DNA from: Sinorhizobium terangae
Lineage (GTDB): Bacteria; Pseudomonadota; Alphaproteobacteria; Rhizobiales; Rhizobiaceae
Direction: 5' to 3'
NCBI RefSeq assembly: GCF_009601505.1
Contig: NZ_WITC01000085.1
Coordinates: forward strand, 124,001-188,000
DNA length: 64,000 nt
Part shown: positions 13,870-38,787 of the stretch, piece by piece
How the letters are laid out: each line of letters starts with the position of its first letter
Position numbering within the stretch: position 1 is the stretch's first letter
Program-made: the position numbers and the translations under genes
The notes under the pieces: generated by a model
The model's input: the letters and a program-made list of their open reading frames with translations, nothing else
What the model was told of the DNA's origin: nothing
Databases searched by the model: none

Positions 13870-14286
13870 GATTTAACCTTTCTTACGCCAAGTTTTGCAG
13901 ACATTCGGCAGCTACTGCATGTTTCCTCAAATCGGAGCCGATTTAAAACATGCGGCGATTCAAAGTGCTACAGCGTCCTTTTGCGCGTCTGACGAGACGC
14001 GCGGCGCTGTAGGGCATATCGAAAATCGACGGCGGCCGTCCAGCGGATTTGTGATAGATTTGACAGGTGGCGGACGGCTCCTTCGGCTAGGAGGTTGGTC
14101 GGCGCGTCGTCGTGCAAAAACTGGGGCGATAGCGAGCCTTTCCACAGCATCGGCAGGGACGCGTGGTGACTTGGCTCGACGAATTGTGATCTACATGGGT
14201 GAACAAAGGGTCCGGCCCTCGCGCGCGGCGACTGGCCTTACAAGGAAATTTGCAATGCCGCACTTAGGCGGAGGGCGCCGGCGCCG
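13870..14286. other. Intergenic region between bcp and the AsmA-like gene
   Basis: About 420 bases without a credible gene. It holds the RIME-like palindromic repeat at 13911-14012 and must contain the divergent promoters for bcp and the AsmA-like gene. No clear sigma-70 boxes could be assigned. Open frames here are arginine-rich and look non-coding. Confidence 0.6.
13911..14012. repeat. RIME-like intergenic palindromic repeat, copy 1
   Basis: About 102 bases made of two palindromes. The first pairs GCATGTTT and AAATCG with CGATTT and AACATGC. The second pairs CTACAGCG and GCGCGTCT with AGACGCGC and CGCTGTAG. A related copy lies at 38250-38356. Two linked palindromes of about 105 bases fit the rhizobial RIME1 elements as I remember them. 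Confidence 0.75.
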
Positions 14287-17200
14287 ATGAGCGATATCCG
14301 CGGCGAAAGGGTCTGCTTTCGCAAGGAAGACATCGTCGCGCTGCACGAGCTGCCTTCGGCGCAAGCCCACGATCCGGTCATCGTGCATGCGCCTCGGCCG
14401 GGCGGCGCGCTGCGTTTTCTCGGCAAGATCATACTGTGCTGCTCGCTGCTCGCTTTCGTTGCCGTGGCGTCCCTTGTCGCGGTTATCGAAACCGGCCTGG
14501 TCGACGGGCCGCTCAACACACGGGCACGCACGGCGCTGAACGCTGCTCTTGGCGAAAACTATAATGCCGATGTCGAGAGCACCGTGATCCGCATGACGAG
14601 CGGCGGCGCGCTTGCGCTGAAGGCGCGCGGGGTGACGCTCAAGGAAAGCGGGTCGGGTCGCCACCTCGCTAAGCTCGGCGCAATTTCGATAGCGCTCGAC
14701 CCGTTCTCTCTGATGACCGGACGCATAGCCGTGTCGCGGCTCGAGGCGGAAGAAGGCGAACTCGACACGGGCCTGCTGCCACGCGGCGAACCTATCGACC
14801 TCACGACGATCCGAATCGCGGATGTCGGCGAAGCGCTCGAGAAGTTGTTCGCCCAGGCGGACCGCCTGTCGCGACTGACTGCGGGCAGGGCGACACAAAC
14901 CGTGCTGCTCTCGGATTTCAGCCTATCGGTCACAGGGTCGCGTGGTCGCGCCGTTCCCGTCGAAGTGAAAACGCTCGAGTTCACCCACGACCCCAATAGC
15001 TCCATGCGCGTCGATGGAATCGTTGCGATCGACGGCATCGAAGCGCAATTGACCGCCAAGGCCCTCGGTGAGAACGGCCGCATCGGTGGCTTCGAGGGGA
15101 CCGTCAGCGCTTTGCCGCTCGCTCCCTTTCTCTATCACGGCAAATCGGGAAACGAGGAAGCCTTCGGCGTCGAGGCGGCGGCGGACGTCAGCCTGAAAGC
15201 CAGCCGTGCGGCTGACGGCCAGAAGCCGGCGCTGGAAGTCAGCGTCAGGACAACGCAAGGTTCGTTTCATGCGGGGGGCCTTGTTTCCGCTCTCAACCCG
15301 TCCGACCTGAACGTCTCCTATGATTTTGACCGCGCCTCGGTCGAAATATTGCCGTCCGTCGTCAAGATCGGACGCTCGAGCTTTCCTTTCACGGGCGCCC
15401 TCATCGATCTCGACAAGGTTGCAGAGGCCAGCCCTAAGGGCTTCGCCGTCGACCTTCTCTTGAGGAATGCGAACTCGGACCCCGAAGACATCCAGGAAAA
15501 ACCGCTTGCCTTCGACGCCAAGGCAAGCGGACGCTTCGAGGCAGACAGTCACCGGCTTATTTTCGATCAGCTGGCGATATCGAGCCCACTTGGTTCCATG
15601 GCCGGTTCGCTTTCGGTCGCCTTCGGCAAGACGTCGCCGCAGATCAGCTTCGTCGCGCTCAGCGATCAGATGCATTCCACCGCGGTCAAACAATTGTGGC
15701 CTTGGTGGCTCGCCAAAGGAGCGAGACGGTGGGCGATAGGCAATCTCTTCGGCGGGACTGTGAGCGACGCGCGGATCGAGGTTTCGATACCCGAGGGACG
15801 GATCGCCAATAACCAGGGCGAGCTTAGGCTCGACGAGCGCGAGCTCAACATCAACTTCGCCATTGAAGACACCCGCATCAACATCGCCGGGGAGATTCCG
15901 CCGCTTCGCGACACATCGGGGCGTTTCAAGCTCAGCGGCGAACGCATGGTCGTCGACGTCGGAAAGGGGGCCGCCTATTTCCCATCCGGCCGCTCCGTCG
16001 CCTTGAACGGGGGCGACTTCGTCATACCCGACGTCTATTCGAAGCCGCTGATGGCGGAAATGAAGATCGAGGTCGGCGGGCAAGCCGACGCGATTGCCGA
16101 GCTTGTCGCCTACAAACCGATCCGTGCCCTCCAGAAGACGCCATTCGTGCCGGAGGATTTCACCGGGCCGATGACAGCCCTGGTGGGCGCGCGGTTCGGC
16201 CTGATTTCGGACCAGAAGCCCCCTTCGCCTCTCTGGCAGGCGGAGATGCAGCTACAGGACGTGACGATTAACAAGCCCATTTCCGGTCGTTCCATCGCCA
16301 ACCTGGCGGGCACCATGCGGATCGACAACACCCGGGCGGTGCTTGAGGCCGATGCACTGATCGACGGTTCCAAGATGCGGATCGCACTGACCGAGCCGGT
16401 TGACAGCAAGGCAAACGTGAAGCGAACACGCGAGATCTCGGGGACGCTCGACGACGCCGCCAGGCGGAAGATCGCTCCGGCCTTGTCCGGCATCGTCAGC
16501 GGGCCGGTCGGCGTCGACGTTTCGCTTGCCGAAGACGGCAGCCAATCCGTCAAGGCGGACCTCGGCAAGGCGTCGCTGTCGCTGCCCTGGATCGGGTGGA
16601 GCAAGGGGGCCGGAATCCCTGCAAGAGCCCAATTCGCGGTCAAGGCAACAGACGGCGTGACGGAGGTCGGCGATTTCAATATCGCCGGCGACGGGTTCGG
16701 CGCCGCCGGTCGCCTGCGTGTCGATGACTCGGGCCTGGCATCGGCTGAACTGAACGATGTGCGCCTTGCAAGCGGAGACAATTTCTCCGTCACGATCGAT
16801 CGCAACAAGGGCGGTTATGATGTTGGCTTGACCGGCCGAGCTGTGGACATAAGGCCGGCGCTGGTGCGAGTGAAATCCGGATCCGGTTCATCTGACAGCG
16901 GCAATATCACGCTCAATGCCCGGCTTGACGATGTCACGGGATTCAACGGCGAAGTCCTGTCCAATGTGCGCTTCTTGTATGCGGCTCGCGGGCAACAGAT
17001 CGACGACATCGAACTTTCGGCTGTGACCGGAAGCGGGCAAGCGGTTGTGGCCAAGATGGCAAAATCCGGCGCCGACAACATACTGGAACTGACCACCGGC
17101 GATGCAGGCTCGCTGGCGCGTTTTGCCGATATCTACCGCAACATGAGCGGCGGCCTCATGAATCTGAGGTTGCGCGACCGTGGCGCACGTTCGTGGCGCG

Positions 17201-35241: not shown

Positions 35242-35321
35242 CGCATATCATTTTTCATTCTGCCGCAAATGCGGTGCTCACCACAGAGGGCCAGAGGCCC
35301 GCGTGGTTCGGAGATTACGAC

Positions 35322-35900
35322 ATGACGAAGACAAAACTCACCCTGCTTGCCGCCAGCCTGACACTTGTCGCCGCAAGCATGGCGCAGATGGCAGCCGCGG
35401 GCCAGAGCACCCATGCTCTCAAGAGCCCGGCACCGACCGTGACGCTCGCAAGCAGCACACAGGGACACGATGAGCATGACAGCCACCAGACGGCCGGCGC
35501 TCCGGTCGAAGTCGGCGACCTCGAAATTTCCGGCGGTGCCGTCAAGTCGATGCTGCCCGGCGCGAAGGTCGGCGGTGGCGGCCTTGTCGTCAAAAACACC
35601 GGCAGCGCCGACGATCGACTTCTGGCCGTCGAAAGCCCGGCAGCAGGACGCGTCGAGATGCATGAAATGAAGATGGAAAACGACGTCATGAAAATGCGCA
35701 GGCTCGAGGACGGCGTCGCGATCCCGGCAGGCGCGACGGTCGAGCTCAAGAGCGGCGGCCTGCATTTGATGTTCATGGAGGTGAAGAAGCCCTTTGCGGA
35801 GGGCGACACCGTGCCCGTGACGCTCACCTTCGAAAAGACCGGCAAGGTCGATTATGTGCTGCCAGTCGGCGCAGCTGTTGGTGGCCACGAGCACAACTAG
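35322..35900 (+). CDS. Periplasmic copper chaperone PCu(A)C
   Basis: This 192-residue exported protein of the DUF461/PCu(A)C family delivers Cu(I) to cytochrome oxidase. The signal peptide is MTKTKLTLLAASLTLVAASM onward. The domain begins VEVGDLEISGGAVKSMLPGA, and the copper motif is visible as MHEMKMENDVMKMR then GGLHLMFMEVKKP. Two extra His-rich stretches occur, GHDEHDSH after the signal peptide and GGHEHN at the end, which could add metal binding. It follows the DUF2946-like gene, forming a likely copper-handling pair. Confidence 0.9.
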   Translation: MTKTKLTLLAASLTLVAASMAQMAAAGQSTHALKSPAPTVTLASSTQGHDEHDSHQTAGAPVEVGDLEISGGAVKSMLPGAKVGGGGLVVKNTGSADDRLLAVESPAAGRVEMHEMKMENDVMKMRRLEDGVAIPAGATVELKSGGLHLMFMEVKKPFAEGDTVPVTLTFEKTGKVDYVLPVGAAVGGHEHN

Positions 35901-36627: not shown

Positions 36628-37569
36628 ATGCCGAAGACAACCCTGATCACTCTGATCGTCGCGGCGATAGGCGCATTTTGCACGCCCGCGATGAGCGCTG
36701 CCGAGGAGGTGATAATGGAGCAGGCGGCAACGCCGGCGCCGACGAAGAGCGGACACGTCACCATCAACGGCATCAACTACTATTACCAGGTCTATGGCGA
36801 GGGCGAACCGGTGCTGCTTCTTCACGGTGGTCTCGGGATCATCGAAATGTTCGGACCGAATCTCGCGAAACTTGCCGAGACCCGCCAAGTGATCGGCGTC
36901 GATCTCCAGGGCCACGGCCGCACGCCCCTCGGAGATCGCCCGATCGATCTCGTGGCGATGGGCGCGGACATGAGCGCCCTCGTCAAGGAGTTAGGCTACG
37001 AACAGGTCGATGTGCTCGGCTATTCGATGGGCGGCGGCGTCGCTCTGCAGATGGCAGCGCAGGCGCCCGAGAGCGTGCGGCGGCTGGTGCTCGTTTCGAC
37101 ACCTTACGCCAAGGATGGCTTCTATCCGGAAATGATCGCAGCGCAGGCCCAGGTCGGCGCCGGCGCGGCTGAGATGATGAAGGAAACGCCGATGTACAAG
37201 TCTTACGCCGCGGTTGCGCCGGACGTATCGGAATTCCCGAAACTGCTCGACGCGATGGGGGATCTGATGCGGCGCGACTACGACGGATCCGCAGCCGTGG
37301 CCAAGCTCACCATGCCGGTTATGCTCATTTATGGCGACAGCGATATGTTCCGGCTGGAGCACGTGGTCGCTTTCTATCACAAGCTTGGCGGTGGCCTGAA
37401 GGATGCCGGCTGGATGCGCGAGAACATGTCGAAGAACCGGCTGGCGATCCTGCCCGATCTCACCCATTACGACATCTTCGTCTCGCCGAAGCTCTTCGAA
37501 ACGGCCTTGCCATTCCTCAATGGCGAGAGCGGCGCAAAGAGCTGGGCGGAGCAGGTCGAGGGGAAATAG
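36628..37569 (+). CDS. Secreted alpha/beta hydrolase
   Basis: This 313-residue hydrolase has an N-terminal signal peptide (ITLIVAAIGAFCTPAMSAAE). The catalytic layout is LLLHGGLG (oxyanion hole), GVDLQGHGRTPLG, nucleophile elbow LGYSMGGGVAL, aspartate region LIYGDSDMF and histidine in LPDLTHYDIF. This is the broad esterase/epoxide hydrolase-like group; the substrate is unknown. The start follows CGGAGGATGAGAC. It stands alone between the hypothetical gene and the micro-lipoproteins. Confidence 0.9.
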   Translation: MPKTTLITLIVAAIGAFCTPAMSAAEEVIMEQAATPAPTKSGHVTINGINYYYQVYGEGEPVLLLHGGLGIIEMFGPNLAKLAETRQVIGVDLQGHGRTPLGDRPIDLVAMGADMSALVKELGYEQVDVLGYSMGGGVALQMAAQAPESVRRLVLVSTPYAKDGFYPEMIAAQAQVGAGAAEMMKETPMYKSYAAVAPDVSEFPKLLDAMGDLMRRDYDGSAAVAKLTMPVMLIYGDSDMFRLEHVVAFYHKLGGGLKDAGWMRENMSKNRLAILPDLTHYDIFVSPKLFETALPFLNGESGAKSWAEQVEGK

Positions 37570-37746
37570 GCATTACAGTCGGGCGGCCCGCCGCGACGGT
37601 CCGCCTCATGCGCCCGTAAATATTTCTATACCTTCGGTTGAGCAACAGAGTACAATCACAGCCGCGATGAAGAAAAGGCCGCCAGATCCTGCGCAAACGC
37701 CAGAGCATCGGGGGACGCCACTTCAGCCAGGAAAGGACGAAGGTCT

Positions 37747-37884
37747 ATGCGCGTGATCGTGTTGTTGGTAGCGCTTTCTGCACTATGCGCGTGCTCACAA
37801 ACCTCAAGGTCGACCATGGTCGACCGGTACGAACGTGGGGAGGGGGACTACTATCCGGGCATCGTGCCGCCAACCCCATTCTAG
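37747..37884 (+). CDS. Micro-lipoprotein A (45 aa), tandem paralogue
   Basis: This short gene encodes 45 residues: a signal segment MRVIVLLVALSALCAC with a lipobox ending at Cys16, then SQTSRSTMVDRYERGEG and the tail DYYPGIVPPTPF. The ATG follows GGAAAGGACGAAGG. A paralogue with the same layout lies 235 bases downstream at 38119. Both share ACSQT after the lipobox and GEG(D/E)YY(P/Q)GIVPP at the end. At DNA level they share GCGTGCTCACAAACC. It is predicted to be a lipid-anchored envelope peptide. Function is unknown. Confidence 0.7.
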   Translation: MRVIVLLVALSALCACSQTSRSTMVDRYERGEGDYYPGIVPPTPF

Positions 37885-38118
37885 GACGCTGCCTATATTC
37901 ACGTCAGGTAATGAACAGGAGCCGCACCGGTCGGGTTCCTGCCGCGCCTGCAGGACGGTTCGCTTGCCGCAGCGGTGACACCTTGCCGGCCAATTCCCAT
38001 CTCGCCGATAGCCGTGCACACACGAAAGATTGGGTTGCGATCATCGGTGGGGAATTGATCCCGCGCCATTGCCGGAATATCAATGATCGTCAATCCGTTA
38101 GCAAAAAGTACGAGGCCT

Positions 38119-38229
38119 ATGCGCAAGATCCTATTGTTGCTCGCAGTCGCCGCTCTCGCTGCGTGCTCACAAACCGTTCACGTTGGAGGCGAAGGGGAAT
38201 ACTACCAGGGCATCGTTCCGCCGCGGTGA
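38119..38229 (+). CDS. Micro-lipoprotein B (36 aa), tandem paralogue
   Basis: This 36-residue gene begins MRKILLLLAVAALAAC, a classic lipoprotein signal with lipobox LAAC (Cys16), followed by SQTVHVGGEGEYYQGIVPPR. The ATG follows CGAGGCCT. It is a shorter version of the gene at 37747 that lacks the nine-residue middle part. Conservation of signal peptide, lipobox position and the YY.GIVPP tail between copies argues that both are translated. A RIME-like repeat begins 21 bases after the stop. Confidence 0.7.
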   Translation: MRKILLLLAVAALAACSQTVHVGGEGEYYQGIVPPR

Positions 38230-38249
38230 TTATCGGAAATCGCACTGAG

Positions 38250-38356
38250 GCTACTGCATGTTTTCTTAAATCGTACCCCGATCTAAGGAAAAAACATGCA
38301 GCAATTCAAAATGCTACAGCGTCCTTGCGGGTCCGATTAGGCGCTCGGCGCTGTAG
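38250..38356. repeat. RIME-like intergenic palindromic repeat, copy 2
   Basis: This element of about 107 bases is related to 13911-14012, with the same order: CTACTGCATGTTTTCTTAAA, a central palindrome ending AAACATGCAGCAATTCAAA, then GCTACAGCGTCCTT and GCGCTCGGCGCTGTAG. The stems have diverged more than in copy 1, but the outer sequences are kept. Confidence 0.75.
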
Positions 38357-38420
38357 GTCGAGATGGCGCGACCTTGGCAAGGCGGGAGGCGTCCGAGGCC
38401 TGCCCCGGCACGAGGTTGTC

Positions 38421-38461
38421 ACCCATGTCTTAGGTACGTTCTGTTACCTATGTCTTCGGTA
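38421..38461. repeat. Short direct repeat beside tRNA-Ala
   Basis: Two 16-base units, ACCCATGTCTTAGGTA (38421) and ACCTATGTCTTCGGTA (38446), match at 14 of 16 positions with a 25-base period. They end 16 bases before the 3' end of the tRNA gene. They may be a remnant of a mobile element end, but no transposase is present. Confidence 0.4.
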
Positions 38462-38477
38462 TGGACAAGACAAGGCT

Positions 38478-38553
38478 TGGTGGAGTCGAAGGGATTCGAA
38501 CCCTCGACCTCCGCAGTGCGATTGCGGCGCTCTCCCAACTGAGCTACGACCCC
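38478..38553 (-). tRNA. tRNA-Ala (anticodon CGC)
   Basis: The 76-base minus-strand sequence folds as a cloverleaf: acceptor GGGGTCG / CGACTCC with encoded ACCA, D arm GCTC-AGTTGGGA-GAGC, anticodon stem CCGCA / TGCGG with loop ATCGCAC (anticodon CGC), and T arm GAGGG-TTCGAAT-CCCTT. The acceptor contains the G3:U70 wobble pair that identifies alanine tRNAs. It reads GCG codons. Confidence 0.95.
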
Positions 38554-38787
38554 ATTAGCTGAAGTGTATAAGAGAAATCCGCGGGGCACGCCAGTACCTG
38601 TGCACGCGTCGACGCCGTAAATCTCGGCGTCCTGATTTGGAAGTGATGCCTTTCGGCTCAGTTCTTGTCGAGTTTCGGAAAGGCGGAGATACTCGTCCGA
38701 AGGAACATCGCGACCAGCATCGCCTGCTACGGCGCGCGAGACGAAGGCGAGCTCGATCGATCGGCTCACCAAGAGACGCTTTGATGC

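Follow-up and report, generated by a model that had tools for sequence, protein, structure and literature searches.

Two short open reading frames (ORF1 and ORF2) in a 64,000-nucleotide stretch of the Sinorhizobium terangae genome (contig NZ_WITC01000085.1; the whole stretch is called the window here) are real: they are conserved micro-genes for predicted lipoproteins that annotation easily misses. Their tails represent one copy of a wider tyrosine motif that is found in small exported proteins genome-wide, a family that, as far as the database and literature searches go, is apparently undescribed. The two frames of 45 and 36 amino acids and their common layout are present in the ORF list and the translations exactly as claimed in the original prediction, with Cys16 in a lipobox, ACSQT and GEG[DE]YY[PQ]GIVPP near the end of both. 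The locus comprises the following features:

37623-37658, + strand: mostly conserved block upstream of ORF1, likely the promoter region; CGGTTGAGC...GTACAATC, also given as GGTTGAGC...GTACAATC (alignment of 14 of 29 loci).
37730-37743, + strand: predicted ribosome-binding region of ORF1, GGAAAGGACGAAGG (sequence and alignment).
37747-37884, + strand: ORF1, predicted lipoprotein of 45 aa, MRVIVLLVALSALCACSQTSRSTMVDRYERGEGDYYPGIVPPTPF; predicted mature peptide CSQTSRSTMVDRYERGEGDYYPGIVPPTPF; orthologues in 29 of 32 Sinorhizobium genomes; pN/pS 0.37.
37747-37791, + strand: predicted signal peptide of ORF1, residues 1-15, ahead of Cys16, box L-C-A-C (alignment; model helix 2-20).
37837-37884, + strand: C-terminal motif of ORF1, GEGDYYPGIVPPTPF; pN/pS of the tail 0.21 versus 0.47 for the middle.
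38050-38099, + strand: conserved block upstream of ORF2, likely its own promoter; TTGATC (38055-38060), 17 bases, TATCAA (38078-38083).
38119-38229, + strand: ORF2, predicted lipoprotein of 36 aa, MRKILLLLAVAALAACSQTVHVGGEGEYYQGIVPPR; predicted mature peptide CSQTVHVGGEGEYYQGIVPPR; 30 loci; pN/pS 0.23.
38188-38229, + strand: C-terminal motif of ORF2, GEGEYYQGIVPPR; pN/pS of the tail 0.13.
38245-38311, no strand assigned: palindromic intergenic element after ORF2, possible 3' end; role putative.

Upstream of the pair lie a PCuAC copper-chaperone gene (35274-35900; Pfam) and an alpha/beta hydrolase gene (36628-37569; Pfam Abhydrolase_1, signal peptide recognized by eye). Downstream of ORF2, a tRNA-Ala is encoded on the opposite strand (38478-38553), and in Rfam this tRNA alone reached the gathering score. 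A 17-base piece of the palindromic element is repeated at 13945-13961 with 2 mismatches. An alternative start of ORF2 at 38083 would give 48 amino acids; however, this start codon shares bases with the conserved promoter-like TATCAATG, and some orthologues do not keep its frame. In another frame, a 257-aa ORF (37785-38558, + strand) overlaps both genes and ends antisense to the tRNA-Ala (RRDSNPRPPQCDCGALPTELRPH); as a gene, it was judged spurious by eye.

The expected conservation of the reading frames in relatives was confirmed, as both ORFs are present in 29 of the 32 Sinorhizobium genomes (own included). A search of 60 genomes with ORF1 resulted in 39 matches at E values up to 1, consisting of all 32 genomes of the genus and seven others, the latter at E 0.056 or worse. 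Two genomes (G021 and G029) carry the ORF2 type only, and longer relatives were the only matches in G009 (70% complete). ORF1 is identical in sp. IC4062 and sp. MPMI2T. Spacing of the two ORFs is loose, with gaps from 137 to 922 bases across loci. The family-wide search of 297 genomes confined full-length matches to Sinorhizobium (g1) and Ensifer (g95) and revealed no full-length homologue outside these two genera; other hits (E 3e-4 to 0.009) were partial and mostly covered the signal-peptide end. An ORF2-like gene is present in the Ensifer genomes that were read, and some Ensifer genomes encode extra lipoproteins ending in GGDGGFYAGAVAPR or GDGDYYHGIVAPR. Among 16 chosen representatives, M1, R2, L7, L13, C16, G31, G33, Y35, Y36, G38, P41 and P42 are invariant; in the fuller set, P41 is replaced by S or A in two ORF2 copies (L023 and L028).

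Substitutions accumulate at third codon positions in both genes. Differences per codon position were 0.256/0.144/0.455 for ORF1 (28 distinct sequences) and 0.142/0.056/0.388 for ORF2 (30 distinct sequences). The pN/pS ratios (0.37 and 0.23 for the whole of ORF1 and ORF2) were 0.40/0.29 for the signal, 0.47/0.36 for the middle and 0.21/0.13 for the tail, and are descriptive values from a simple count over all pairs, with related pairs not independent and no multiple-hit correction. Stops in the two other forward frames occur in 23 and 5 of the 28 ORF1 sequences and in 7 and 14 of the 30 ORF2 sequences. Since these frames are often stop-free, an open frame of such length is unremarkable, and the coding case rests on the substitution pattern because openness by itself proves nothing. 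The codon statistics indicate that both peptides are under selection, the tail most strongly. Selection on the peptide across the duplication, as originally proposed, is thus backed by orthologues in two genera and by the codon statistics, including pN/pS.

Both genes are preceded by conserved blocks. The block upstream of ORF1 is less well kept in L023 and L027. In the block upstream of ORF2, GAATATCAATG is invariant in the 14 aligned loci (of 29), and TTGATC was seen in 13 of these 14, lying beyond the aligned stretch in L028. Its sigma assignment was made by eye, and a strict scan for consensus sigma-70 promoters flagged neither ORF. Most orthologues carry GGAAAGG as ribosome site before the 38119 start; the window has GCAAAAAGTACGAGG, which is weaker. 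From these sequences, we infer that ORF1 and ORF2 are probably transcribed separately, each from its own promoter.

The lipoprotein signal claimed for the two peptides is consistent with a conserved lipobox and predicted export: R2, a Leu-rich h-region and L-x-[AGS]-C are found in 29 ORF1 and 30 ORF2 sequences. The pattern used for the lipobox required the Cys, and the copies initially missed (seven of ORF2) were recovered with a looser pattern. Searches of Pfam, NCBIfam, PHROGs and PDB sequences gave no convincing match. The Pfam model LPAM_1, with only 18 positions, scored ORF2 at 15.1 bits against a gathering cut-off of 20 and did not hit ORF1. The best PDB-sequence match was a viral capsid (E 0.2), which we took as chance.

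The tail of ORF1 and ORF2 is one copy of a wider motif, G-[DES]-Y-Y-x-G-[IV], in small exported proteins of the genome. In the siblings, it is located at the predicted mature N-terminus, at the C-terminus or at both; copies often lie around a TGS[IV] linker, and the genes are often in tandem. At the DNA level, the pattern [GDE]-x-YY-x-G-[IVM] resulted in 17 matches in the own genome versus 3 for the reversed control. Twelve of these, one of them stop-interrupted, map to small proteins that have a signal peptide or lipobox. These proteins occupy six loci: the ORF1/ORF2 pair, two further pairs, a lipoprotein of 63 aa that ends in NGSYYKGIFRE, and two others. The remaining five look like chance and fall in larger proteins, identified by eye as a LacI-like regulator, a membrane protein of 515 aa, a glutamine synthetase-like protein and two more. 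The first member of the two-motif pair carries DSYYPGIDP at its predicted mature N-terminus and GEGDYYRGIVPPTP at its end, and one member of another pair has GGSYYEGVS and GGDGEYYQGISR. In 14 relatives of the two-motif protein, ADSYYxG, TGSI and GxGxYYxG[IV]VPP are kept and the linkers vary.

A number of observations concern the two-motif locus itself. In L033 of the own genome (G000:C60, around 16543-16608), the second two-motif protein has a TAG stop straight after the C-terminal YY; in its counterparts at 11 related loci, the frame continues into the usual tail. The linker of the second two-motif protein is made up of a variable number of VDPxPTGS[VI]Y-like repeats (L058 3085-3474, L063 1864-2307, L059 3066-3449). 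The gene order CreA-like, motif gene(s), methyl-accepting chemotaxis protein and SCO1 is shared by the own genome and a distant genus (L232, L227 and L218; partly by eye), and the locus of S. meliloti Ak57 is flanked by CreA, CheW and SCO genes (identities partly by eye).

Altogether, we collected 194 motif copies in 135 distinct exported-looking proteins. Of these copies, 117 end within 8 residues of the C-terminus, 58 start within the first 45 residues and 19 lie in between, which describes a set gathered by the motif itself, orthologues included, so that the evidence on motif position comes from loci selected by the motif. At the position of the first tyrosine, 96% of the copies have Y and 4% have F (the second Y and the G were fixed by the search pattern). 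Of the 74 collected proteins longer than 70 aa, 55 contain TG[SA][IVL]. ORF1 and ORF2 share with the group an export signal (by eye and by a simple pattern) and [GD]-x-YY-x-G-[IV] in the mature chain, and have a single motif copy without a TGSI linker between copies. The TG[SA][IVL] linker thus marks the longer soluble type and not the whole motif group.

Within the Rhizobiaceae, the motif is restricted to a few genera, which suggests an accessory role. Eight or more matches to G-x-YY-x-G-[IVM] were found in five of 121 genomes: two of Sinorhizobium (own 12, G015 8), one of Ensifer (G125 14) and one each of two other genera (G101 14, G034 11). The remaining genomes had at most 5 matches, and counts for single genomes are noisy, because two genomes in which the true pattern counted 2 and 0 reached 10 with the reversed control. 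No excess was detected in 143 other Alphaproteobacteria (up to 4 matches per genome, controls up to 9). A profile built from the secreted siblings hit 20 of the 297 family genomes, spread over 9 of 109 genera. The strong hits are in g1, g95, g71, g99 and g4, and in g71 and g99 the genes form tandem arrays of five or more. Weak hits in g97, g79, g32 and g48 (E 6e-5 to 5.5e-4) were without a short ORF of this type and were not counted. L262 (g99) had no short ORF under the same filter, yet its genome gave four profile matches; G129 of the same genus had only 2 pattern matches and is outside the 20, so members of this genus may be without the motif family. Relatives are located on plasmids in Pseudorhizobium flavum, Rhizobium sp. 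Q54 and Neorhizobium galegae. On the P. flavum plasmid (L221 4578-9754), the motif gene has a divergent two-component system on one side and genes for TolC, copper oxidase and plastocyanin on the other.

What do these peptides do? Two independently transcribed micro-genes would give rise to small lipoproteins, which cleavage by SPase II would convert into peptides of 30 and 21 residues, anchored by lipid and for the most part disordered. In E. coli, a serine after the lipidated cysteine directs a lipoprotein to the outer membrane, and by this rule both peptides, with serine at this position, would be sent there. Their most constrained part is the C-terminal G-x-G-[DE]-Y-Y-x-G-[IV]-V-P-P. The AlphaFold2 models show no usable fold: mean pLDDT was 52 in one sibling, and residues 21-45 of ORF1 had block means of 50-57. 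These low values are weak evidence for disorder because the alignments were shallow (14 and 13 rows). Sequence and model together suggest that the constraint sits in tag and export and not in a recognizable fold.

The motif would most likely be a short docking signal, read by one envelope partner, either a protein or a polymer. The lipoproteins would then act as membrane-anchored monovalent ligands, and the secreted siblings as bivalent or trivalent ligands able to bridge. A docking motif fits best, since many exported peptides with little else in common carry one short tag at one end or the other, and its occurrence in so many other exported proteins makes binding of the tail to an envelope partner more likely. 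We give roughly even chances to the idea that ORF1 and ORF2 yield disordered, lipid-anchored peptides, the docking motif of which is read by an envelope partner that the soluble siblings also use; the present analysis revealed no such partner. A more speculative picture, which we regard as doubtful, makes them the anchored single-motif arm of an undescribed envelope system of Rhizobiaceae, in which a dedicated receptor in the periplasm or outer membrane would read the YYxG[IV] tag on numerous small disordered exported proteins and soluble proteins with two or three tags would cross-bridge receptors under envelope or metal stress.

With the motif, what was an isolated curiosity becomes a family, namely many exported proteins of plant symbionts and their relatives which carry one short tag and are hypothetical or unlisted in the records examined. 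The shared tag offers a handle on the envelope interaction, using a peptide pull-down with GGEGEYYQGIVPPR and YY-to-AA mutants, and would let gene finders call very small lipoproteins that are otherwise missable.

The constancy of the first tyrosine and the two- or threefold repetition of the motif in siblings would also suit modification or cross-linking of the tyrosines by an enzyme, or recognition by an envelope protease, with the peptides as precursors of matrix or signal and not as ligands. We consider this unlikely. No candidate modifying enzyme was seen to recur beside the inspected loci, which is weak evidence because the neighbours were judged by eye on their first 75 residues.

A link to copper is rather improbable in our view, although the neighbourhood points to it. 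Here, the motif proteins would serve periplasmic copper or cuproprotein handling, as small exported accessories beside copper chaperones and cupredoxins. The sole PCuAC match of the own genome is 1.9 kb before ORF1, and the sole match is also near in G017, G022 and G125 (0.9, 1.9 and 3.1 kb). The own genome and G125 each have a single SCO1 match, at distances of 3.5 and 4.1 kb to the two-motif locus. A third motif gene has a Copper-bind (pseudoazurin-like) gene 2.7 kb away, and on the P. flavum plasmid the motif gene is upstream of the TolC, copper oxidase and plastocyanin genes. We mapped four copper families in six genomes (G000, G017, G022, G125, G101 and G034) and found 3 of 6, 2 of 4, 2 of 4, 3 of 9, 0 of 4 and 1 of 2 motif loci within 5 kb of a copper gene (binomial values 2e-5, 0.0014, 0.0015, 9e-5, 1 and 0.018), and 3, 2, 2, 2, 0 and 0 within 4 kb. 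These counts cover pattern matches whose context was read, which sets aside as loci four matches in G017, two in G022 (5680 and 5851 kb), two in G125 (C2, 760 and 2117 kb) and four in G101; matches that on reading proved to be in larger or unrelated frames were also omitted. However, the proximity was noticed first and then tested post hoc on the same loci, and the genomes are not independent because the Sinorhizobium and Ensifer loci are largely orthologous. Furthermore, two later G101 loci (C22 and C42) are on contigs without a copper match, and other genes lie in between in Sinorhizobium, with no shared operon. The motif itself offers no Cys, His or Met as ligand, and no copper gene was named near the Rhizobium sp. 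Q54 gene or seen by eye near that of Neorhizobium galegae. Given the post hoc test, the non-independent orthologous loci and the lack of a shared operon in Sinorhizobium, we treat the copper link as a lead only.

That the ORFs are small RNAs or intergenic DNA open by chance is very improbable: they are short, other frames are often open as well, the conserved upstream blocks would equally fit an RNA gene and translation in the source strain is predicted from sequence alone, but the excess of third-position substitutions, the low pN/pS in both ORFs and paralogues of the same peptide elsewhere argue against it. Equally hard to credit are lysis-type lipoproteins such as Rz1 spanins or entericidins, whose size fits and to which weak PHROGs matches point (Rz-like spanins, E 0.05 and 0.075 for ORF2 and 0.37 for ORF1): the spanin matches span residues 1-25 at most, the best one (E 0.05) only residues 1-19, the top PHROGs match overall is phrog_6716 (function unknown; E 0.0048, ORF1 residues 1-28, mainly the signal region), no Rz-like gene was seen by eye in the ORF list of the window, and entericidin is absent among the Pfam and NCBIfam families listed at E values up to 10, a range in which HMMER filters drop most matches above about 0.1.

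In comparison with known systems, we are aware of no entericidin-family lipoprotein with a YYxGIVPP tail. Members of that family, e.g. Agrobacterium Atu8019, are likewise tiny lipoproteins of Rhizobiaceae envelopes, and Atu8019 is reported to have a role in OMV docking (PMC7296081). In agreement with the assertion that the genes are unannotated, neither ORF lies under any of the 3239 listed features of S. meliloti Ak57 (CP090106.1), a single record from a collection with known gaps in its gene tables. In Ensifer sp. PDNC004, one relative carries the annotation 'hypothetical protein'. A Ribo-seq and MS census of S. meliloti (2023) reports 48 novel small proteins, two of which have an SpII site and are regarded as probable lipoproteins (PMC10117765). 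ORF1 and ORF2 could be these two; the passages available name neither a sequence or locus for the two candidates nor a motif family. Six motif peptide strings retrieved no bacterial envelope protein among the matching literature titles, and a search for literature on tyrosine-rich exported proteins of Sinorhizobium found none. The closest likeness is to the GxYYxG[IV] exported proteins, a grouping made in the present analysis, with members in Sinorhizobium, Ensifer, Pseudorhizobium, Rhizobium sp. Q54 and Neorhizobium galegae that are named 'hypothetical protein' where listed. They share with ORF1 and ORF2 the motif, the predicted export and a closely similar C-terminal copy, whereas the siblings mostly have SPase I-type signal peptides, a length of 75-150 aa, two or more copies and often the TGS[IV] linker.
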